Source: Eucommia ulmoides
Taxonomy: Eukaryota > Streptophyta > Magnoliopsida > Garryales > Eucommiaceae
DNA length: 64,000 nt
Assembly: GCA_016647705.1 (NCBI GenBank)
Contig: CM028328.1
Coordinates: forward strand, 4,675,311 to 4,739,310
Direction: 5' to 3'
A program made the translations under genes and the position numbers. Positions 16,914-32,459 of the stretch are shown here, piece by piece; the stretch's first letter is position 1, and every line of letters starts with the position of its first letter. The notes beneath the pieces are model-generated. The model did no database searches and had not been told where the DNA came from. It saw nothing but the letters and a program-made list of their open reading frames with translations.

Positions 16914-17104
16914 AACGAAAACGAAATCAAGGAATTAATTCTCCCCCACGTTATCGTACCACGAACCGTTAACAAAAGGAGAAGAATGCAGAACACAAGA
17001 AACATAATGACTGCACAGCCAATAATGCATTAACCCAAATTATATAGTATGTTGACTGAGGTTAATTAAGAAGAATCCATGGAAATAATTGCTTTTATGT
17101 ATGT

Positions 17105-20100
17105 TCAGGCAGCTTTTAGACGAGTCTCCAAGATCCCATACGTAGAGCTGAAGCTTCCCCCACCCCTTTCCTGGGCGTACTCGGAAATAACACTACGAAC
17201 ACAAACATCCCAAGTTCTCGCTACGTCCCAAAGGGACATCGGTTGGGCGAGGCTGCGTAGGGAGAGACTCAATCTGCCCCTCGCCTTTATCGAAAGGTCT
17301 TCATACTCCTTGCTGCACAAAACAAAAATGTGCAAAAGAACTCTAAATCATTTGATTTGCATGCAAAATATACACACTTTGTTTACAGCATACATACATA
17401 TTACATACATAGGTTAATTATATGCGATGTGGCGAAAAAGATTGATTCAACAAGATATGCCTTGCCTGCAGTAAGATTTAAAACTTGTCGTCTACTTAAT
17501 TCTGAGTTCATGCCACGATGATCTATATGGAAGTGCAGTTTTGTTGATGCATTCGTATTGAGAATGCAGAAGACGAGAGATCTTCTTTTGAACAGGAAAA
17601 TTTGGTCACGTAGATCTTCTATTTCGCTCCAAATGCAAAAATGGCGGTGACGTAATAGAAGAAAAGAGGATTAGCCTCTTAGTGAGAAATAAAGCTAATT
17701 CAGATTCAATGTAATAGTAATCTCTTTGTATTACACATTGTTATTTACTCTAGAAGAGGTACATGTAGATAAAAGTACCTAAAATGTAACAATAACCTCT
17801 TTTAGCACTACACTACACTCATTATTTACACTAGAGAGCCTAGGGATTATGGTAAACAAAATAAGGCCTTGAATAAAAGAATTTGGTGGGTTAAGGGGCT
17901 AGAATACAAACTTATAAAGATTTTAACTAGATAGAACGAGTTGACTACAACATCAACCCGACCAGGGGAGATTGGCTCTTCGGCCTCAACTCCTCACCCC
18001 GACCAGGGTTACGACCCCAGGACAAGGTGCCACCGCTATCCCTACCCGGGAGCAGTTGTAACGTCCCCACTTATTCAGGAAAGAGCCATTGAACTCCCTA
18101 AGTAATAGTTCCTTAACTCCCAACCCCGTGATTATCGCCACATTAATGATAATAGGCCAAGATTCGGAAAAGACTTGCCAAACAAGTCCTCCTTCACCTA
18201 TAAATACTGACACGGGGGATCTGACCAAGTACGCTCTTTTTTTCTAGCTGATACTTTGCAAAACTTTCTTGAGAACTCTCAAAGTGACGTGTCTGGTGAA
18301 CCATTTTCAGGCTTCATCAATGTGTATAACTAATTTTTTTTTTTTAATCAAAGTGGGGCTTGCGTCCCCCATGGAACAACATGCATCTGCCACGGGCAGT
18401 TATGCTCGTAAAACATAATTTACACAAATAATTTCTGCCAATCTTGCAATTTATCATTTTTTTGTGAATCTTAATAAAAGAAAACATGCAAGTTGTGCTA
18501 AATTTGTCAAATAGATAAAATATCACAAAACTGATGAAAATATAAAAGGAGCCTGTCGTCTCACCTTATTTCCACTGGAAACTTGTCCAACAATATCGGG
18601 GAGCAACTTGGATAATTTGTGGGAACAAGCAGCAGTAAGAGCTGAATCGGTGTCTGCATTACCGATATAAGCTATGTAAGTTCACCTTAGAAACGGAACA
18701 CCCGTGATTGAAATTTACTGAAAGGCATTGAAAACTCACCAGTTGTGCTGAAGCATACTGTGATTTCAAATTCGGACTGACAGCCACAGGAATGAAGGAA
18801 CACTTGACAATAGTTCCTTCACCACCACTAGCAGCAGCTGCTTCTGTAGTTGTATCGCTATCGTCATCACAGATATCTAGCAAAGTTTCTATAAGTCGCC
18901 TATTAATTCCCCGTATTTCCTCCTTTAGGCCATGGTTTGCCTGCAATAGATGACACATTACTTCTGTATAGTTGAGAAACTATATAGCAATTTTCCCAGG
19001 ACGTTGTGGTGGAAAAATTACATGCTACAATCAAGCACAACTATGTGAAGAAAAAAAACATAGTTATATTAAATAATGAGGTAAATGAGGAAGGACTGAA
19101 TCTCCAAGAACCACATCATAAGCTACTACATCAATAAGAAACACATGAACATATTGGAGTTCTAAAGTCTTGGAAATAACTATTAGAATCCATTTTTCTG
19201 TATTCTATTGATTAAGCCTCCTTTTTTCGCTCGTTGAATAGAATTGTTTCTTTATTGGCCCCGAAGTAGTACAACAGAGAGTTGTATGTTGCGTTCAGGA
19301 AGGATGAATCGCTCCATCTATACAAAATAAGTGAAAGATTACGGAATTTGAAACAGCGGCACAAACGTAGCAAAGAAAAACATAAAGATGACTTTCATAA
19401 ATCATACTACCAAACTAACTTGCAAAGAGTATTTTCTGAGACATTTTAAACTTGTAGTAAGAGAATAGGAGCGTAGAACAGTACCTCAATCCTGGGCCTC
19501 TTATGCGATGTTGCAGTTGACTCTAAATCAGATGATTCAGATCCAGTACACCATGTGAAACTATCATTTATGCTGCCAGCTGATGATGGAATATTTAAAG
19601 GCACTGCACTCATATAGCGCTTCATTTTCTTTGTTCCAGTGTGTCCGTCTTGTGTGATAAAATTTCTTGCCCGTAGAAAACATTTTGGCATGACAACCAA
19701 ATCCTCACCAACAGCAGCTCTTGAGCCATTATCAGGTGCTGATCCAGCAATCTTATCAAGCATGCTGACAACCGACCCAATTCCACTAACTGAGGCACTC
19801 AATACCTCAGGTGACATTGACTTTACCTGATGATTGAATCATATAGAATAAAGAGCCATTTGATCAACCAATCTCAAAAGGACAGGAAAAGAAGAAAAAA
19901 TAAGGCTGGAAGTTGGATTCAACTAACCACTTTAATTAACCGTTCAAAAGGCTGTTCTGTTACATTTGACTTGTCTGGTATAACTGATGCATGGCCATGA
20001 CTATCAGGACCAGTGAACTCTGCAAGCAAAGGCGATGCAGATATGCCAGGAGTGCCAATGGCAAGCGATTGTGCCAGTGCGACTGCACCAGTTGTTTGCT

Positions 20101-23100
20101 GATGTCCAACGTTTGCAACATTCGACAGTGATGAAACGCCAGAGTTGACTTTATCAGACTCCCCTGGCATCGGAGAAGGAGCCAAGGGCGTTGAAGGAGA
20201 TGGAACAATGAAGGGTGAGTTTGCAGGCTGCAAAGCGGTTACATCTTTGGTAAGAGACGTCGGTAAGTTTTGTTGGTCTATTTGTGGAGAAGGATGCTGT
20301 GGAATTTGAGGGGATGCAGCTTGAAGTAGTTGAGGTGAAGAACTAGGCAATGGAGATCCTCCCTTCAATTGTTGGTGATGAAATGCCGACTGCTGTGCTC
20401 CTGGATGATTCTGGAGAACTCCAGATCTCAAACCCATTTGCTGTCTCATTTTCAAGTCAATATCAGAAACTGAATGAAGCTGTGCCATCTGGTTTGCCTG
20501 CAATTGTGTAGACTGCTGCTGTTTTGTTTGCTGTTGCTGCTGCTGTAGCTGCTGTTTATGCATCAACTGTTGCTGCATCTGGCGCTGTTGGAATTGTTTC
20601 AATTGTTGGTTTCGTAGAATCTGCTGTTCCTGCTGTTTCAGACGCTGATGCTGAAGAATGTTGGCAGTTGGCTGTATTGCATTCATCCCACTTTGTGACG
20701 ATAAGCTGCTCATGTTTACCTGTAGTGGTCCATTTGCAGAATTTTCTTGAAGTGATCCAACACCAACCTGCCGCAATGAATTCAGAGAATTGGATTGTCC
20801 GTGAGCCAATTGGGAAGCAGTCTGCAGCGAATTTATCATCTTCTGTTTAGCATTTGAAACCCCAGATAAAGAAAATGTCGTGTCATTCTGCTGCATTGAT
20901 CCTACAGAACTCTGTAAGTTCATTGACTGCATCTGTGGGTTCATCTGATTCTCATGGGTAATTTGAACCTGTGGCTGCTGTGATTGCTGCATGGCGTGCA
21001 TATGAGGAAGTTGTTGATCTTGCTGCGAAGGTTTTCGGAGCCTATTTGAATTGAGAAAACCGACAATCTGCTTCTCATAGTTGGCGAATTTCTCCTTATG
21101 AGCAGTTGTTATATTGCTCTTTGGAACTTGCATGAATACAATTAAGCGCTCCAGCATATGTTTAAATCCCTTCAGCTTCTCATGCTGTTCATTCTTTGGT
21201 TGCTGAGGAAGAGAATCAATCTGGAAACCAGTAAAAAATAACAGTGTGATGAGACAAGCCCAACCCCAGGCTAGGAAGAAAATATCCTACCACCGCTACA
21301 GAATAAGCCATATGGGATATAATGGAATACTTATAAATTGAGTTTTTTGTCGCTTACCAGCTGCAATTTACCAGCAATTCTATGGTACATTTCATTTACT
21401 TCTGGTAAATACATCTCCTTCAATGTCTTTATCTGCAGGCAATAGCAACAAAGTTTCAGGTCTGATTCCAACAAAAGGATATATGTTATGGCAACCTTTT
21501 TTAACCGATAAACTTTAAAGGGCAGAAAAAAACAAAACAGTTCATGAATACAATGAAGAAACAAACATTTCACTTCAATTTAATGTGTGATTGGAGATGT
21601 AGGGGTAGTTCATGTCACCTTACTTGACCGTCTTAACTCTTCAGAGTAGAAGCAGAAGATAATTTATGGGATAATGGATGGAGAGACCCAATCAAATGAT
21701 GTAACTAAGAAATTATCCAATTTTTTTAAACGCTGAGAAATAGTCCTTTGATAGTGATTACAGTTTCCGTTTATTTCGACTATACTATTAAATGACACCA
21801 TTGCCCTCACTTTACAAATCATTAAATAAACTAATTTAAGCATAAGTTTCAACCACAATTTATAAAGAAACTAATTTAAGCAAAAGTTTCAATCGCCGGC
21901 CTGGACCAACACCCACCTCCAGCACCTTCGCAGTCAACCACGTTGGACCACCTCCAGCCAACGACAGACTACTGCAGTGACCACCGTCGCCAAACCACAA
22001 CCACATTGAAGCAGCGAAATGTAACAAAAAGGGTATTTTAGGCAATAAAATTATAATTGTAACTAATTTATTTAATTCGGCGGTAAGTGGAGGAATGTAA
22101 CAAAGGGTATTTTAGATATTTTAAAAATTATAATTGTAACTGAATTTATATAAGTTGGTATGAAATAGTGAATGTAACAATGGGTATTTTCGGTATGTTA
22201 ACATTTATTATAGAATTAGTTCATGCACTGGAATGTAACAAAAGGGTAAAATTGTCAACAAAATTAGGAATAAACTCAAGCTGTAAAAAAATTGGAAAAA
22301 TTAAGGGATTAAAAGGTTATATATTTGCCACACATATTAAGTGCTCCAACCCTTCCAACCTTCAGAAACTCAACGACACACACACACAAATCCCGTGTCT
22401 TGGTTCTAAGGTTTGCCCAACCACTAGTCAATCATTCAATCCTACAGTACAGGTACTTTTTGAAAGCAATGAAGACCAACATTTTGATCAACCTACTCTT
22501 GCCTATAAAGCAAGAAAATTTGTTAGGAAACAAACATTATAAAGTACCTTTTGATAAACCTCCTCTTGCCAATCTCCAGCATTTGCATTTCCTGTCTGAC
22601 TGGAGGAATCTAACGAGGCTAATCACAAAGAGAAGTAGATAGTTATATTAGCAGAGAATAAATAGATGATTAAGTAAATGTCGAAGTTGTGTAATAATAA
22701 CAGAAGTATTTCATGAACCCCACCCACCCCCAAAACAACCTGCCGCCACCAAAAAAATAGGATTAAAAAAAAAAAAGGAATGAAACAAAGAAAGAAACAG
22801 AAAGACAAACAAATGCACACAACTTCTACTCTTCTTTTATTACTTGAGAAATTGTATAACACAAGCATTTCATGAAACAGATCCCCCCCCCCTTTCAAGG
22901 AGGAACACGTACACAACATTCATGTTCTTCTTCGTTAAGAAACTGCCAGAAATTACTCCCTCTACAACAACAACAACAAAGCCTTTGTCCCACTTATATA
23001 GGGTCGGCTACATGAATCCGTTTAAGCCATAGTGATCGATCAAGGGTCATCCCCTCAAACAGGTTTAATATCATCAAATTAATTATAATAGTCCCGTTCA

Positions 23101-26100
23101 ACGTCTTCTTAAGTTTACCTTTCCCTCTAGTAACCCCTTGCACTTGAACTAAATCACATTTTCTCAATGGTGCATCTATTGGTCTTTTATGCACATGCCC
23201 AAATATTGAAAGAAATGAGTTGACTGCAGCAAATATTTTCTATCGTCTTATCTAGAAATTATTACATTACTTGTACTCATGGGGTATACAATGTTCACAC
23301 CAGACATAAATTTACCTGAGACTTCACCTAAGACTTATGAGTTTGCGTAATTCAGTCAATTATATTAATCTCCAAAAACATCAGGACAAATAAAACAAGT
23401 AAATAAGACTGACAGTTACCAACAAAGCGGTAAGAAGCAATGTGTAACCAATAATTGGCTGAATGACGTGAAGAGCCAAACTGTACATAAGAATCATGCA
23501 TTTAACCAAATTTGCAAATTGCAATGAATGAAATTGGCGGAAAAAATATAATACCACGGAAAAACCTCCAAGAACGCAATATTCACCCATAAACATCTAA
23601 GAGAATCTTTGACAAATAATATACTATGGAAATTAATCAATCAAATTAAACCTAATGGCAATAAATTTGAAGGATGATACTTTAGGATCCTACACGAAAG
23701 AGGAAAAGGTAAAAAAAAACTGAGAGCGAATATTAAGTGGATATGAAACTATAGTGTCAGAGCACACGAACAGGTGGAGCAGCATGGAACAAAATTTAAA
23801 AAGTTCCTAGTGAAGTTATATACTTGATGATGCCTCTGGTATTGCCCTCTGTTTTCGAAATAACTGCTTCTGCTGTTCCATTACATTCTGCTGCAGAAAT
23901 AAGGAGTTTGATGTTTGAAGCCTCTGCTGAATATCTCAATGTATAGGATTTGGAAGGTGTTGTAAACTAACCTGCTGTTGCAACTGGCTGGACTGTGATT
24001 GCATTTGTGACATCGTTTGCTGCCGTGGCTGTGATTGTGATTGTTGACCTTGGGTTGGCAACAAAGTGGCAGAGGCCTGTGGTGTTTGCTGCTGCACCGG
24101 AAGCTTAGATTGATGTTGTAGCATGTGGACAGAATGCTTGTTAGATGACATGGCAGAGTTACCAGGAGGAGTTCCAAGAAGCTGTGGTTGCTGTTGTTGC
24201 CCATTATTTTGAGGGCCCAATTGCTGCGGATGCATATTTGAAAGGTTGCTTTGCTGACCCATCATTTGCTGCAGCTGAAGATTGGATAGATTGTTTTGCT
24301 GACCTAGTAACCTCTGTTGCTGCTGTTGCTGCAACTGCATGTCAGGAATGCTGTTCTGTTGCCCCAGTAGCTGGTTCTGTTGCATGCTCGCAACATTTGG
24401 CTGTTGTCCTATCATCTGCGGTGACTGCTGCTGCTGGTGGTTAGGCAACATAGACTGCTGCTGCATCGGAGTTCGGTGTTGCCTGAGGACTGATTGGGAG
24501 GGTTGCTGAAGCATGGATTGTATCGGTTGTTGAACAGAAGACTGCTGACTCTGTTGATGACCACCAAGTGAAGCTGATTGAACCATGCTAGGCTGCATAA
24601 GGGGTTGCTGTGAAGTCGGCAACTGTGTTGGTTGTAGTAGGTTCTGCTTCTGTTGTTGTTGCAGCTGCTGTTGATGGATGTGAGATTGCATTAGGGAATG
24701 GGACATGCTTCCTGGCTGTAACTTTTGCTTCATCAGTTGCTGTTGATACTGCTGCTGGTAGAGATAATTCTGAGGATTCTGCGACTGCTGCTGTTGGGAA
24801 ACACCCTGCTGCTGCCTTCCCTGGATCTGCCCATGGGTATTGGTGAAAATGTTGGAAGACCCCTGCCCCGTTGGATTTCCTATGTTTTGAGATAACCCGG
24901 AGATGTTTTGCATGTTCTGCAAACCAGAATTCTGGCCAACCACATTTGGCATGGTACCGTGGGACAAGCTGCTAACAGGAGACAGTGCAGATGTCAAACC
25001 AGAAGAACCTTGGACTCCGGTCGATCCAACGGTATTCTGAATGTCATGGGATAATAATTGTTGGCGCTCTTGAGACTGATTTATCAGCACTGGCTGCCCT
25101 TGGTTGTTGACTTGGGATCGCATGCTCTCTGATGCTGAGAGAGAGAGACTCCATTTTCAGCCCAAAGACACTCACCAGGGAAAAATATAAAAGAAAAACA
25201 CTCCATTTTTGCCCCTCATTTCATAGCTAAACCCCACCTAACCCTAATAGACAATTACTTTTGATAAACTCAAAGCATATACGAAAGAGGAACACAATAA
25301 TCATGATTGTTCAAACATAGCAGATTGTACTAAGCAATGATGCTTCTTCTATTTCATGCATAGCACGATACTCAGAAGGAGTCGAAAGTGCAGACTTGTG
25401 GTTTTGAACATTTCTCCAATTCTAAAATGCAGATGAACCAAACTCTAAACAAGAATAAAATATATTGAATGGTAAATACTAAATGAATATTGTTGCATTA
25501 CAGAAACTCTCTCCATCCCTAGAAGATTGTCTCCTTTGACTTCAATCAAAGTTTTAGGTAGTGTTTGAATATCTTTTACTTAACCACGTTGCCCTAATTT
25601 TTATTTTTTATTTTTTTAGTTTTATAGTAAGGTGTGTCCGGGCTAGCTTACCTCACCTTGACTAATCACCTCACCAAGCGATCTTAAGGGTGCACTCCCC
25701 CACATTGGCCTGGTAGATTTAGGATTAAATTCAAGATTTAATTCTCGGAGTATTCTCCAAGACAGGCACCTCTCCTTTGCCAACAGGACTAACACCTCTC
25801 TTGGGTACCACGTTCCCAATTGGATAGTGGTCGAGAAGAGGGTTAGTTTGGTTATAAACTATGTTTGTTTAAAAAGTTGGGAAATTATTGACATCAAAAA
25901 ATGAAAGTAGGACAATTATATTGAGACGGAGGAAGTATCGTGTATAGATAAACAAAACAAAGAAATTGATGAACTTGAATTCTCACTCATATTTACCAGC
26001 ACTACAAATGATTCAAAATCAAAATTCTTCATCATCCAACTAATGGACAAACATAAATCATCTACCAAAAAATAAATTTAAAGCATATATTACTACTTTC

Positions 26101-29100
26101 ATTACATTATCATATAATCGTGTAACAAATGCTAGAAATCAAGAGGAAAGGGGGAAAAGGCCGTATGTTAAATGAAGGAAGAAGTAGTGAATTATTACAT
26201 CAAATCTTGGAAACAATCTCTCTGTATATAGGGGTAAGGCTGCGTACATCTGACCCTCCCCAAACCTTACAATGATGGGAGTCTTCATGCACCGGGTTGC
26301 CCTTTTTTATATCTCTAACAAGAACTATCTTTTTTTTTAAAAATTATTTATGTCCTAGTTTTTTGGCAAATTGGGCATAACTTTATTTCTTGGCGAATAA
26401 GAGGTGAGGCCAACCCAAATCAAAAGAGAGGATTCCTTTAAAAATTTGAGCTTCCTAGGTTTTCATAAACTACTTATTGTCATTGCTATGTGAAAATAGT
26501 AAAAACTGTTAGGCAGTATTAGTGAAGCAAGAAAACGTATTGCATGTTAGGTTGAGATAATCATAGAGGAATGCATACTACAAATGCAATGATACGACCA
26601 AACCGTAAGAGCATGCGAAACTTTTTGTACCTAGATCTGGTGGATTTTTGGCAATACTTGCAGATGGATTTAGAGAATGATTCTCCATCGAAAACATCTT
26701 AAGAGAGATTTTTTTTAAATAATCATCCTGCAATCAGAAATCACAAAATGATTATAAATCAAGTTATTCATGACATACAAGAAACTAACCATGATTCAGA
26801 ACAGAAGTTAGTCGGTTAACAAAAAAAAAAGAATAGGAGTTTTTGTAAAGCATTTATAGTAATCATTTCACTGAAGAGTACGACCAACATACATATAATC
26901 AAGAAAACCTGCATGAGGTTCATACCTGGTCCGTTGCATCACAATAAATCTTTTCCTCAAACCTTAAAGCAAGTTTCTTTAGTTCTTGCAACCAATCCTG
27001 TCCAGAGAAGGGAACATGCCTCTTCAGGGTATCCATTCTACATGAGAAAGGTAAAACTTTAATTAGCAAATATTCACATTAAACAGATATTAATCTTTGA
27101 GGAGAAATTTAAGCATAAGCCAAACTAATCTAGTTAAAGAGCTTAAAAAAAAAAAAATCCAAGGACAAGGAAATATATCATGAGAACTTGTTTCAGTTGG
27201 GCCTAAATCTAGGCAGGAAAGAAAGGTGAGTCTACAAAAATTTCAATTAAGTAGAATCAATGTTGCAAAGGGCGCTTTCTGGACTAGCCCAGAGGCAGGG
27301 CATAGTAGAAATATCCCTGGCTATGGGTGAGGCGAATGAAATGTTCCTTTAACGTAAGCCCTGGCCATAAAAATTGGACAAGGCCCAAGGCTTGGGGCGT
27401 AAGCCCTATGGTCTTTTTCATTTTTTTATTTTTATTTCAATAAATCAAATGTTATTTAAAATTAAGTTATTTTAGTTTTTAATTAAGGGTAACATTTAAA
27501 ATAACTCAACTTACTATTAGAAAATAACCCTATAATATAGTCAAGCGTCTTCATCTTCCAATCGGTGATTATATAGATTTCTCTAGCAAGGATTGAACTT
27601 GTATTTTTGCTTATTTACATTCCATTATCCTACAGAAGTTATCATTGTTTTATTTTATTAGTAACTTGATATTAAGTTTTTATATATGTTGTCCAGTTTT
27701 TCTTTTTTGCCATCTTATATTTTGTTTTCCTATTATTCGTTTTAATATGTGTATGTATTTTTTATTATTATATATTTTAAAATATTAAAATTCATATTTC
27801 ATGGGGCGGACTTACCCCCCGCCCGAGATAGGTTAAAACGCATGGCCTCGCCCCCACGCCTTTTACAACACTGAGTAGAATACAAAAAAGTAGAAGTGGT
27901 TATGCAAAATAAAATCCAAAACTTTTATATTTGTCCAACTGTCATCCGCCAAAATACAGAATGAAGTTTGACTACAATCTACAAATCACCAGACTATTGA
28001 TCAATCGACTCAATCTAGAACACATTCAGTCTTTCGCAATGATGACTATTGACTTCATCCAAGATTTACCAAGCCCTTCCAATCTATTAAGAAAATTTAG
28101 CTCATGAGCGAAAATGTCAAAAGTCTGTGGTAAATCTATAGTGTTTTAGGAAGGATTGTGATATGAACCAAGCCCATACTTGGTACAAACCAATGGTTAC
28201 AAACCCATTAGGTAGAACTCACCCTTGAAAACCGGCTTACAAGGGGAGGGTGCCTAGAGGCTTATAACCCACCAACCAATCCCATACTTAGTCGATGTGG
28301 GATCCTAACATTTCCCCACGCTTCCACAGCCGACATCCACGTCGGCCTCTTTGCCCCTCTGGCCTCTTCACCCCAGCGCAATGGTCAGCCTGCCACGTGG
28401 CATGTTGGCGTGGGGCCCGGGACCATGCTCTGATACCAATTGATACGAACTAAGCCCATACTTGGTACGAACCAATGGTTACAAACCCACTAGGTAGAAC
28501 TCACTCTTGAAAACCGGCTTACAAGGGGAGGGTGCCTAGAGGCTTATAACCCACCAACCAATCCCATACTTAGTCGATGTAGGATCCTAACAGATTGTTG
28601 GTTCTTTGGTAGGGAAGAAGCCCCGAAAGAATTCAGGCTTCACTTGAAATGGCAATCTTAAGGAACTTTAGTTTTACCCTAACCAATACGTGCACATTGA
28701 AGAGAAAGTTGTACCAGTCCATTATGCCAACCTTACAGAAGAATCAATTTAATGTATCTTAAGCCTCGGAAGAGAGTAATGTTCAATATATCTACCTAAA
28801 ACCAAGACAATTTTTACAACTAAAACCTGCCCCCAAAATAAGACTAGAATAAGTTCAGTTAACTATACTACTCATTCATTGAACAACATCAGATAAGCCG
28901 GAAGACAAGAGATCAGCCATACTGTTGAGGTGTAATGAAAAACTGCCAAAGGTTGGGTCGAGTGGGCTTTGCAAATGGGTCGAGAAGGCACAGGGTACAA
29001 AGATTGCACAAATTATATTGATGCCTTGGGAGATTTATGAGGCAATGGATAGGGCTAAACATGCCATAGCTAAATCCTTTAATTAGGAGCAGAAAATATT

Positions 29101-32074
29101 GGCCACCATTTTGAAATAATTGACACAAGATGGGAAGTTCAATTACATCATTTGTTGCATGCAGCTCATCTCAGTTCTATCTAAATCTTAAGCTCTTTTA
29201 TACTAATGAAAACAATGTGCAAGTTAATGAAATGATGACAGGTATGTATCAATGCATAGAAAAATTGGTCCCAAGCATTGAACTACAAGATAAGATTACT
29301 CAAGAATTGGCTATTTATTCAAAACGTGAAGGGTTATTTGGTATACAAATGACAATTAGGCAAAGATCGTCAAAGGCTCCAGGAAATGAACACTAAGCCC
29401 CACAAACTTAGCAGGTGAACTAGAAATTTAATAATTTAAGTTCATACTAATTGATTATCCTTTAAAAGAAGTTTGCTAATTATTTCTACTTGAATGGTGG
29501 ACTTCGTATAGTTTTTCAACTCCAAATTTGTATATGTTAGCCATTAAAGTTCTTTGCTTAACTTGTAGTGCATGAAGATGTGAGTGAAACTAAAGTGTAT
29601 TTGAGCATGTAAGAAAAAAATTCAAATCCAGAAAGTATAACTTGTCGTCTTGTCTAACAAACTAGGTCGTTGCCTGTTGGAGTGTGTTGGTATTGAAGTT
29701 TCAAAGTTTTTATTGACTTATTTACAAGTTCATAACAAGAGAAATAGACTAGAACATAGCAGCATAAATAATTTGATGTTTGGAAAGAACAATAGATCAC
29801 TTCAACACCATCATGATTTGCGCAACATCATCAATCCAATATCTTTGGATAACGTTGACAAAAAAAATGAGTTGCTAACTGGGACGGTAGATGGAGATTA
29901 TGACGAAGATGATGAGCTTTTTTTTTACGGGTTGATGACACTTGGACATGAGGTGACGTTGCTATAGCAACTGTAGAAGAAAATAGTGTAAAAACCACAA
30001 CATCAAGTTCAAGGGTGACTACCAGTTGACTTTAACTTATCGACAAGGAAGAATTAGGTTCAGATGATACCGAAGAAGAAAATGTGGTAGGATACAAATC
30101 TAATGATTCTTACGATGATGATCAATGCTTAGGATTGATGATGGTGACATTTTGATTTTTAGAGTTTATTTTGTTTGATTGAATGTCGTTTTTTCTTTTC
30201 CAGATATTCCCGTTAACTTTAAACAGTAGAGCTTATGTTTGTAAAATTTTAAAATTATCAGCATTTTGTTGGATGTTTATGTCTATTAGCAGATATAACT
30301 TAGATTATGTTGAATACAAATATTCAGAAGGTAAAGAGCACATATTTTAAGCATTTTGTTGTCTTAGTACATCTTGCTTCAATAAATCATGCACCTCGCC
30401 TTGTGTCTTGGCCCCACGGGACCTTTTGCACCTCGGTGCACCTTGCACCTTATGCCAACCAACCATTATAATGTGAAGTAATGAAAAACTTCAATTGGCA
30501 AGTATAAAAACCAAAAAATATGGAATGCACAACCTTGTTCTTCCTTTACCTAAATAAAAGAACAGCAAAATTGGTCTACATAGTTCACTTGCCAATCATG
30601 GGTAGTGATTGAATCTAAAAATAGCATTAACACACTGTTTATTTTAAGTACGCCACCCTTCGAGTTCAATCTCAACTTGAGATAACAGTAGTTAATAGAC
30701 CGAAAAAAAAAATGAGAATTTTTATAATCCTCTAAGCTAAATGAGGATAAACCACACCACCAATGACCAAAAGTTACTTCCGCCAAGATTATACGCAGGA
30801 AATACACACCTCCCACTAGGGCTGGCAAAATGGGTTATTACACGAAACCATCACAAAAATTATTGGGCACGAGTTTAGTTTATCTGGTAACGGGACGTTA
30901 TCGCGTCGGACACGATAAACAAGATAAGAAACAAGTTGAATTTCGGGCTTACCTGATAATCCGATATGTGGCACGAATGACACAATAATAACAATTCGGG
31001 TGTTTAGGTTACGCAATAGGAAAGACATAATAGGTCACACGATAATTTTATGAATTATTTTTGAAATAAAGTATACTAATAAATATTTCTAAACATTCCA
31101 TAAATTTATTTAATATTACAGTTTAGTCCATATTATATATATTAGTGTTACTAATCTTTTCTCAAACCTAATTTACAATATGAATTATGAAATTGTTGGC
31201 AATTATTTTAAGACTTTGCATATTTGGTAGTTGTTCATGTGAATGTTGTTTGAGAAGTTCCATTACATTGGTGTTTTTTTTTTTTTTTGTTCCATTCTAT
31301 TCATGGGTTTTATTTTTCCCTTTTTTTTTTTTATATTTGTTTGGTTTATTTTTCTTGAAGTTGTATAATGTTTTGTTCTTTTATAAATTGTTATAACTGG
31401 TCTTTAATGTGTAATGAGTTAAACATGTCTTTATTGTACCATGATATCTAATTGTGTCGTGTCAACAGTCCATGTTATCATGTAACACCATAAATTATCA
31501 TGTTATGTCAATCCAATAAATTTCGTGTTATTGTGTAACATGATAAATTATCGTGTTGAGAATTGAGATTGTGTCATGATATCTTATTGTGTCATTGTTA
31601 ATATTCCATGATATCATGTAACACCATAAATTATCGTGTAGTGTCTACCCAATAAGTTTTATATTATTGTGTAACATGATAAATTATCATGTCATATCGT
31701 GTCAACCCGATAAATTTAGGTATCGTATTCGTGTTCATTTATGTTTGACACGATAATTTATCGTGTCGTGTCCACCAATCCTACCTCCCACCAATGCCAA
31801 GCTTAAAAACCAAAGTCAATAGTGTTGAAATTTGCGTACAACAATTCCATTCAATCCTTCTCACACTTTCGTCAGAAGAATCAAATAATTATTCATTCCT
31901 AAACACACACACACACAAAAAAAAAAAATCAAAGAAAGGATGTATGGATCGTGTATGGATGTTGATTATATGATATGACACCAGGATTAAATTGGATTAG
32001 AAAATTTACATCTTATTCACAATCCTCTGTCGTGAATCATGTTGCAGCTGGATCCTCCAGTCACCATTGTCCAT
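17105..32074 (-). CDS. MED15A: Mediator subunit MED15a-like coactivator (KIX domain, Q-rich), frame interrupted
   Basis: MED15 is a tail subunit of the Mediator complex linking activators to RNA polymerase II. Exons (minus): 32074-32010, 27037-26926, 26727-26631, 25134-23824, 22618-22548, 21432-21358, 21220-19928, 19826-19485, 18940-18740, 18653-18565, 17312-17105. All ten introns are GT-AG and every junction keeps frame over 1,287 codons. KIX domain: codons 1 to about 80 ([39 protein letters not shown]). Codons about 95-530 and 600-900 are Gln-rich. [39 protein letters not shown] and the C-terminal [18 protein letters not shown] match plant MED15a in order. Two anomalies: the ancestral start is out of frame by one base (see 32082-32126), and codon 491 (23938-23936) is TGA where relatives have Arg or Gln. 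It could be a damaged paralogue, a gene rescued by splicing, or an assembly error. Confidence 0.92.
17930..18320 (-). mobile_element. LTR-like remnant in MED15 intron 10
   Basis: A GC-richer block with CACCTATAAATACTGACACG (a TATA-like box) then GATCTGACCAAGTACGCTC resembles the U3/R part of plant LTRs. No paired end or target duplication was found, so limits and family are uncertain. The box reads on the plus strand. Confidence 0.35.
22018..22250. repeat. Tandem repeat in MED15 intron 5
   Basis: AATGTAACAAARGGGTATTTT-like units begin at 22018, 22094, 22171 and 22232 (spacings 76, 77, 61) and carry TTATAATTGTAACT between them. Imperfect; old. Confidence 0.75.
22960..23200 (-). mobile_element. 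RTE-type LINE 3' end in MED15 intron 4
   Basis: On the minus strand, residues such as [20 protein letters not shown], then [18 protein letters not shown] and a stop, match the C terminus of plant RTE LINE polyproteins. The stop is followed by GTAGCCGACCC, then GGGACAAAGGC, then (TTG)n (CAA repeats at 22965-22982 on the plus strand), the usual RTE tail. It is a 5'-truncated copy of about 240 bp, as expected from incomplete reverse transcription, in the same orientation as MED15. Confidence 0.85.
25630..25850 (-). mobile_element. SINE-like repeat, family P, in MED15 intron 3
   Basis: On the minus strand it ends GTGATTAGTCAAGGTGAGGT, then AAGCTAGCCCGGACACACC and an A-rich tail. Short relatives of this end occur near 60850 (GCGCACCTCGACTAATCAC on the plus strand) and 63920 (GCACACCTCGACAAATCAT). 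The phrase is a widespread plant short repeat, probably a SINE. The 5' limit is approximate. Confidence 0.5.
26225..26312 (+). mobile_element. Au-type SINE 3' part in MED15 intron 3
   Basis: GGTAAGGCTGCGTACATCTG, then ACCCTCCCCAAACCTTACAA and GCACCGGGTTGCCCTTTTTT are the conserved 3' region of Au SINEs. The tRNA-like head is missing. Antisense to MED15. Confidence 0.82.
27258..27873. mobile_element. hAT-type MITE, 616 bp, exact 8-bp duplication, in MED15 intron 1
   Basis: Starts CAATGTTGCAAAGGGCG and ends CGCCTTTTACAACACTG, inverted ends with 14 of 17 matching. It is flanked on both sides by agtagaat (27250-27257 and 27874-27881). The subterminal regions are rich in GCGTAAGCCC- and GGCGGACTT-like words, and the centre is AT-rich. 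No transposase. Its ends resemble those of Ac-like hAT elements. Confidence 0.92.
28159..28592 (-). mobile_element. TRIM (miniature LTR retrotransposon), structurally complete
   Basis: Two 152-bp direct terminal repeats (28159-28310 and 28441-28592) differ at six sites, all transitions (about 4%). Read on the minus strand they begin TGTTAGGATCC and end in CA. A 130-bp interior has a primer-binding site TGGTATCAGAGC (initiator tRNA-Met complement, 28427-28438), three bases inside the 5' repeat, and a purine tract GTGGGGAAA next to the 3' repeat. The 5-bp target duplication gattg flanks both sides. No coding capacity, as usual for TRIMs, which move with enzymes from other elements. It looks whole and fairly young. 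Confidence 0.93.
28905..30460 (+). mobile_element. Decayed hAT (Ac-like) transposase region in MED15 intron 1
   Basis: Several plus-strand frames carry pieces of the hAT transposase C-terminal half in the right order: [14 protein letters not shown] (near 29040), [20 protein letters not shown] with [20 protein letters not shown] (29235-29385), then a gap, then [20 protein letters not shown] with [12 protein letters not shown] (29725-29860) and acidic Asp/Glu-rich tail pieces to about 30120. Stops and frame changes separate them, and the WSxF-type segment between the second and third pieces is missing. The right side (GCACCTCGGTGCACCTTGCA, near 30430) resembles the subterminal repeats of Ac-like elements. 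A pseudogene, antisense to MED15. Confidence 0.82.
30817..31783. mobile_element. hAT-type non-autonomous element, 967 bp, exact 8-bp duplication, in MED15 intron 1
   Basis: Starts TAGGGCTGGCAAAATGGG and ends GTCCACCAATCCTA. It is flanked on both sides by cctcccac (30809-30816 and 31784-31791), a perfect 8-bp hAT-size duplication. The interior has many CACGATAA/TTATCGTG words and a roughly 140-bp unit repeated twice on the right. No transposase found. Confidence 0.9.
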
Positions 32075-32081
32075 CGTCGGC

Positions 32082-32126
32082 TCACCAGTCGCCACCCTGA
32101 TCAGACCTCCAATTACTCGTATACAT
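32082..32126 (-). CDS. Ancestral MED15 N terminus, now a 14-codon upstream ORF
   Basis: ATG at 32126 opens MYTSNWRSDQGGDW and stops at TGA 32084-32082. The first twelve residues align with the usual plant MED15a start (M-D-T-N-N-W-R-P-x-Q-G-G). One extra base then throws the reading out of frame, and only seven bases after the stop the next ATG (32074) resumes the conserved [11 protein letters not shown]. As it stands, translation would need leaky scanning or reinitiation to make the KIX-containing protein. Confidence 0.8.
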   Translation of the reverse strand: MYTSNWRSDQGGDW

Positions 32127-32459
32127 CAATTACTGGCGATCGCACAAAGCCGAATTTTCGCTGTAATTAACGAAAAATATCTTTAAAAAGAACTCAAGGA
32201 AAGACTGAAATAGAGGTGACGGGGTTTGCGGAGGCGACGATGGTGGTTTAGGGCTTAGGCCTGTAACGGTTATGGCTGCTATGGCGAAGATGATCGCTTT
32301 AAATTTAGGTCGGTGGCGACGGCGATTTAAGACGTTGGCTGCAGCGACCGCCAAGTAGTATTAATGGGGCGGGCAGGTCGGATTTGAGGGGATTTCATGG
32401 CCGAATCGAACTAGGTTTGCGGGGCCCATAGGCCTAAACAAATTTTTAAATAATTAATA
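32127..32459 (-). promoter_or_regulatory. MED15 5' UTR and proximal promoter
   Basis: GC-rich compared with its surroundings. On the minus strand: AGGCCTATGGGCCCC (32421-32435) contains TGGGCC site II and GGCCTA elements, and CCCTAAACC (32245-32253) is a telobox. Site II plus telobox is typical of broadly expressed plant genes. No clear TATA box. A MITE starts at 32460, so upstream control is confined or interrupted. Confidence 0.5.

Follow-up and report, generated by a model that had tools for sequence, protein, structure and literature searches.

A premature stop in a duplicated MED15a-like gene of Eucommia ulmoides lies within a candidate 81-nt cryptic intron

The window, i.e., the whole 64,000-nt stretch of Eucommia ulmoides DNA analysed here, carries a MED15a-like gene whose long Q-rich fourth exon is interrupted by an in-frame TGA, and an intact paralogue is found elsewhere on the same contig. 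We lean, with modest confidence, towards reading the window copy as a redundant MED15a duplicate that was disabled very recently and is not rescued by splicing. In view of its redundancy and its slipping protein sequence, recent death of the duplicate is the simplest account, ahead of a bypass of the stop through the splicing of 81 nt. On this account, a DNA duplication of MED15a alone would have produced the window copy, whose frame would have been maintained, with constraint relaxed, through most of its history until exon 4 was struck very recently by a nonsense change that was probably a CpG transition from C to T, with the intact paralogue carrying the function. Because, with the normal exons, the TGA is followed by another 112 nt of exon 4 and by seven introns, the mRNA would be expected to be a target of nonsense-mediated decay or to yield at most a 490-residue fragment of KIX and Q-rich sequence.

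Our model of the gene, made by comparison with the paralogue, comprises eleven exons from 32126 to 17105 (Table 1), and the gene is MED15a-like. Its KIX_2 domain scores 108.5 bits (paralogue, 123.9; Pfam gathering cut-off, 25.6), and its C-terminal end gives a Med15_C match of 17.6 bits that stays below the cut-off of 23.9, which the paralogue passes with 26.9 bits. A previous sequence-only reading of this DNA had placed a TGA in exon 4 of a minus-strand MED15a-like gene with MED15 sequence on either side, and we concur: the codon at 23938-23936 reads TGA, KIX_2 lies before it, the weak sub-cut-off Med15_C match lies after it, and its number, codon 491, holds when translation begins at the second ATG at 32074. 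That reading had overlooked a 7-nt insertion in exon 1, which shifts the frame of the first ATG, as well as an acceptor 81 nt from the donor that it had noticed. At positions -3 and +4, the first ATG has T and T in the window copy as opposed to G and G in the paralogue, and the second ATG, with A and G at these positions, opens the KIX frame. Ribosomes are expected to scan past a first ATG in weak context, so the exon 1 lesion need not be lethal, and we infer that the second ATG would be usable. Positions 32072-32126 of the window thereby display an apparent start-codon shift from the first to the second ATG. A PDB search with the C-terminal part, up to E=1, gave as its sole match a phage-type head protein (E=0.75) that we took as chance, and Rfam yielded nothing at gathering scores in window positions 10000-40000. 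Among the titles and abstract starts listed for the topic by queries that never directly paired MED15 with exitron, none dealt with an exitron or intron gain in plant MED15.

Table 1. Features of the MED15a-like gene in window coordinates.
Feature	Positions	Strand	Remark
Exon 1 (from first ATG)	32010..32126	-	by comparison with the paralogue
Exon 1 frame from first ATG, weak context	32082..32126	-	14 codons, then TGA
7-nt insertion relative to the paralogue	32088..32094	-	position uncertain by a few bases; puts the first-ATG frame out of register
Second ATG, good context	32072..32074	-	in frame with KIX and the remaining gene
Exon 2 (KIX)	26926..27037	-	
Exon 3 (KIX end)	26631..26727	-	
Exon 4 (Q-rich, contains the TGA)	23824..25134	-	
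81-nt in-frame segment	23891..23971	-	donor CAG/GTTAGT, acceptor CCTTATTTCTGCAG/C; highest-scoring exon 4 GT-AG pair in the 60-200 nt range
45-nt in-frame GT-AG segment	23927..23971	-	named in the sequence-only reading; open coding sequence in the paralogue
In-frame TGA	23936..23938	-	in exon 4; codon 491 counted from the second ATG; the paralogue has an arginine codon here
Exon 5	22548..22618	-	
Exon 6	21358..21432	-	
Exon 7 (Q-rich)	19928..21220	-	
Exon 8	19485..19826	-	
Exon 9	18740..18940	-	
Exon 10	18565..18653	-	
Exon 11, normal stop, Med15_C-like end	17105..17312	-	start set at the shared CAG/C acceptor, 4 bases outward

The existence of a second, intact MED15a, a possibility raised by the sequence-only reading, was borne out by searches of the 946.7-Mb genome. 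A DNA search with positions 23850-24050 gave two places, the window itself and C4:32163327-32163527, which are 90% identical, and a KIX_2 search scored nine candidates of which two passed, i.e., the window locus and the paralogue locus. Located 27 Mb from the window gene, the paralogue (C4:32137198-32170323) has the same 11 exons and an open frame of 1331 codons. Its arginine codon differs from the TGA of the window copy by a single base, C/T at a CpG. The change was probably C to T in the window copy, a direction that we infer because a nucleotide outgroup was not found (viral contigs scanned with the 56-residue stretch around the stop contained no relative). Stop-codon readthrough, which follows a context rule of a CUAG-type sequence after the stop, was set aside since GAT follows the TGA. 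Comparing 74 kb around each copy, we observed collinearity between window positions 16971-32341 and C4:32137069-32170550, parts of the introns included, with only scattered matches outside this stretch, and we therefore read the event as a probable DNA duplication of the gene alone. The two copies differ greatly in intron 5, which spans 18.7 kb in the paralogue (C4:32144276-32162975) versus 1.1 kb in the window and contains, in the paralogue, inverted repeats of ca. 537 nt that are 77% alike. In addition, intron 1 of the window copy contains, at 28159-28592, two 152-nt direct repeats that are 96% alike and 282 nt apart from start to start. Between them lies a TGGTATCAGAGC stretch that we take to be a tRNA-Met-like primer site, suggestive of a TRIM-like element within positions 28029-28714, which are unmatched in the paralogue intron.

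The history of the window copy was gauged against its introns as neutral yardstick, with the divergence divided equally between the copies; in the alignable introns, 934 of 6418 sites differ and 144 of 166 indels are not multiples of three. Starting at the second ATG, the coding sequence has accumulated one stop and no frameshift, compared to neutral expectations since the duplication of about 15 and about 43, respectively (13.5 to 15.8 stops in simulations over three transition biases with 300 runs each). Downstream of the stop we counted no event at all versus 34.7 expected, which limits the unconstrained share of the lineage in that part of the gene to about 9% at most. The nucleotide alignment has 25 exon gaps, ten of them with a length not divisible by three; among these ten, the 7-nt gap is presumably the exon 1 insertion, and we read the others as gap placement because both frames remain open. 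An excess of CpG loss is not seen in the window copy either (19 paralogue-only CpG differences versus 32 window-only), which therefore does not look long silenced. Based on these lesion counts and the absent CpG excess, we rejected a long-dead pseudogene; the kept frame and the lack of excess CpG loss would rather suggest that the gene was maintained until very recently or that its stop is bypassed.

The reading frame has thus been kept, but conserved residues are relaxed in both KIX and Med15_C. With the MED15a chain of PDB 9zjn_C as outgroup, a relative-rate test over 80 KIX residues assigns 8 changes to the window copy and 0 to the paralogue (p=0.008), and the disabled-duplicate reading is further supported by Pfam scores that are lower than those of the paralogue on both sides of the stop. 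By NG86, dN/dS amounts to 0.46 over the entire gene, with 0.42 upstream and 0.49 downstream of the stop, and by YN00 (Biopython) the corresponding estimates are 0.91, 1.61, and 0.66; the two methods disagree, and we place little weight on either. In having a disabling lesion together with an intact relative, the window copy is a candidate pseudogene. The suggestion of the sequence-only reading that this gene is decaying is supported by the intact paralogue and the lost conserved residues, although the frame is otherwise kept. Three observations sit less comfortably with a disabled duplicate, i.e., the intact downstream frame, which would be equally expected if the stop were bypassed, the position of the TGA within the best-scoring GT-AG pair of exon 4, and the absence of a CpG-loss excess.

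How a bypass might work had previously been proposed in the form of a 45-nt exitron. The sequence agrees with the description of this segment as GTTAGT...ATTCAG with CAG at either side and the TGA in frame within its 45 nt, and the remark that such a length is below normal plant introns finds support in the available part of PMC6161759, in which 30 predicted Arabidopsis introns of 31-59 bp were tested and two were verified, both of 59 bp and thus the smallest verified ones. Like the 81-nt segment, the 45-nt segment is internal to a coding exon, has GT-AG ends, and is a multiple of three in length, as is typical for exitrons. We nevertheless rejected it as an exitron: it is shorter than those 59-bp introns, its acceptor is poor (4.8 bits, with 1 of 20 real acceptors of the two genes lower; the donor beats 17 of 20 real donors), and the TGA at 23938-23936 violates the definition of exitrons as free of stop codons given in the available parts of PMC4484396 and PMC10985678. 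A 48-nt variant using the same donor and the next AG is likewise too short. In-frame segments of 30-60 nt that are at least as good cover 3 of the 130 nonsense-able codons of exon 4, and such a segment arose across the stop site in 1 of 1000 synonymous shuffles, for which the donor is mainly responsible. The paralogue reads the same stretch as open coding sequence; on the favoured reading, the GT-AG look of the 45-nt segment is coding sequence that both copies share and not an exitron. What survives of the proposal is the idea that splicing removes the stop, now as 81 nt from the same donor.

The TGA lies inside this 81-nt pair, which outscores every other exon 4 pair, in whatever frame, that spans 60-200 nt and has 4 bits or more per site. 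Scored with a splice weight matrix built from 20 introns (10 homologous pairs) and tested on the same genes, the donor at 23971 reaches 9.1 bits, above 17 of the 20 real donors of both genes, and the acceptor ending at 23891 reaches 11.6 bits, above 17 of 20 real acceptors. Their sum of 20.7 bits exceeds 18 of the 20 real introns of the two genes, so both sites compare well with real ones; in both copies, intron 7 likewise has GTTAGT as its donor. The length of 81 nt equals the shortest intron of the paralogue (86 nt in the window copy) and falls within the range of 80-87 bp confirmed for Arabidopsis introns in the available part of PMC6161759, and an A+T content of 63% is equalled by only 1.5% of 81-nt windows in exon 4. 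Among nonsense-able codons of the whole gene (CAA, CAG, CGA, TGG, and the present TGA; n=235), six lie within the segment. Of 1000 synonymous shuffles, 10 produced a sum of at least 20.7 bits somewhere in the exon, and both sites were as good in 2 of 1000 synonymous shuffles and 0 of 1000 codon permutations. In all 10 of the shuffles that match the sum, the pair includes the stop site, and in 63 of 1000 a pair across this site attains 18 bits, which suggests that the local protein sequence itself favours a splice pair at this place. The best in-frame pair of the paralogue's exon 4 is found at the same place, open and likewise 81 nt long, with 16.2 bits and alternatives of 78 and 84 nt; a splice-capable site thus seems to be common to both copies and is probably older than the stop. 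In exon 7 of the paralogue (C4:32142574-32143914), we further noticed a full-consensus donor CAG/GTAAGT within coding sequence and an in-frame acceptor 147 nt on, an exitron-like arrangement whose donor has been lost in the window copy.

Splicing from 23971 to 23891 would remove 27 codons including the TGA and leave a slightly shortened MED15, which would amount to premature-stop-driven intronization from an exitron-capable site older than the split of the copies. We consider this possible rather than probable, yet a serious rival because it would explain why the frame is intact, why the splice signals are strong, and why the stop lies where it does. Besides site scores that are rare in shuffles, an intron-like length, and A+T richness, it can draw on the open counterpart in the paralogue, on the intact downstream frame, and on the second ATG as a way around the exon 1 frameshift. 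Moreover, the window copy has the higher splice score and the lower GC content, the same direction that is described for exitrons among paralogues (scores rise, GC falls) in the available part of PMC4484396. Much of this is, however, tempered by the preference of the protein sequence for such a site, by good pairs elsewhere in open coding sequence of the paralogue (18.3 bits in exon 7 and a further, out-of-frame pair of 92 nt with 16.7 bits in exon 4), and by a weight matrix that was derived from so few homologous introns and applied to the same genes. The segment also came to notice through its stop inside GT-AG ends, a selection effect, and U1 pairing of its donor is weaker in the window copy than in the paralogue (-7.9 versus -9.0 kcal/mol). 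Intron-like evolution, expected only if the intron is not very young, is not seen within the segment in comparison with the paralogue: there is no indel, residues are alike at 21 of 27 positions versus 1024 of 1243 outside, and replacement and silent codon changes stand at 5:1 inside versus 219:110 outside (p=0.67). Since the segment changes in the same manner as the coding sequence beside it, splicing, if it occurs, would have begun recently, and a protein that is losing conserved residues fits poorly with a rescued gene. An even bolder version, an intron caught at birth in which 81 nt of ancestral exitron-capable sequence gained stronger signals in the window copy and made the stop harmless while the paralogue reads the segment as protein, strikes us as somewhat unlikely.

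The stop might alternatively matter for what it leaves behind, a 490-residue protein of KIX and Q-rich sequence that lacks the C-terminal part and acts as a transcription factor decoy. Though KIX_2 is indeed encoded between the second ATG and the TGA, we find this improbable given the seven introns after the stop that would invite nonsense-mediated decay, the loss from KIX of 8 residues common to paralogue and outgroup, and the intact downstream frame, which implies that truncation cannot be old. Least probable of all, in our view, is that the TGA reflects a base error or is private to the sequenced plant. One assembly and a single-base difference would permit it, but differences of the CpG type are commonly real, the window copy also carries the exon 1 insertion and many further differences from the paralogue, and the DNA search matched two places only, with a second haplotype of the locus not found. 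If the assembly is Eucommia ulmoides v2.0, its source would furthermore be haploid and Illumina-corrected according to the available part of PMC7603500.

Should the ordinary explanation of a freshly disabled duplicate hold, the window copy would represent a clean case of a duplicate killed by a single nonsense change, and it would caution against reading much into GT-AG ends that flank a stop where the exon is rich in CAG. If splicing instead removes the stop, a single genome would hold both an intact control and a stop-bearing copy of one cryptic intron, making the premature-stop origin of introns directly testable with ordinary RNA reads. Were the intron truly caught at birth, the pair of copies would amount to a natural experiment in a plant, showing a gene before and after intron gain driven by a premature stop, a process whose model reportedly goes back to Catania and Lynch in 2008.

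Among known systems, a recently disabled duplicate pseudogene with a single lesion shares with the window copy the disabling stop, an intact parent copy, relaxed protein constraint, and retained introns, but the window frame is otherwise intact over ca. 1290 codons and its stop sits in a strong in-frame cryptic intron. Compared to MED15a itself (PDB 9zjn chain C), the window copy has KIX_2 in common, and the paralogue passes Med15_C too; the window copy differs by its sub-cut-off Med15_C match and its premature stop. Exitrons as portrayed in the available part of PMC4484396 resemble our segment in being internal to a long coding exon, a multiple of three in length, and bounded by GT-AG, with an open version in the paralogue, yet they differ from it in that the window version contains a stop, that its 45-nt form is shorter than plant introns that have been verified, and that the sites of its 81-nt form are strong and not weak. 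The model of intronization driven by premature stops, as given in the available part of PMC2586383, likewise features a stop in part of an exon whose length is 3n and which is bounded by splice signals, as we found in exon 4; unlike in that model, the window segment is a putative intron that does not yet evolve like one.
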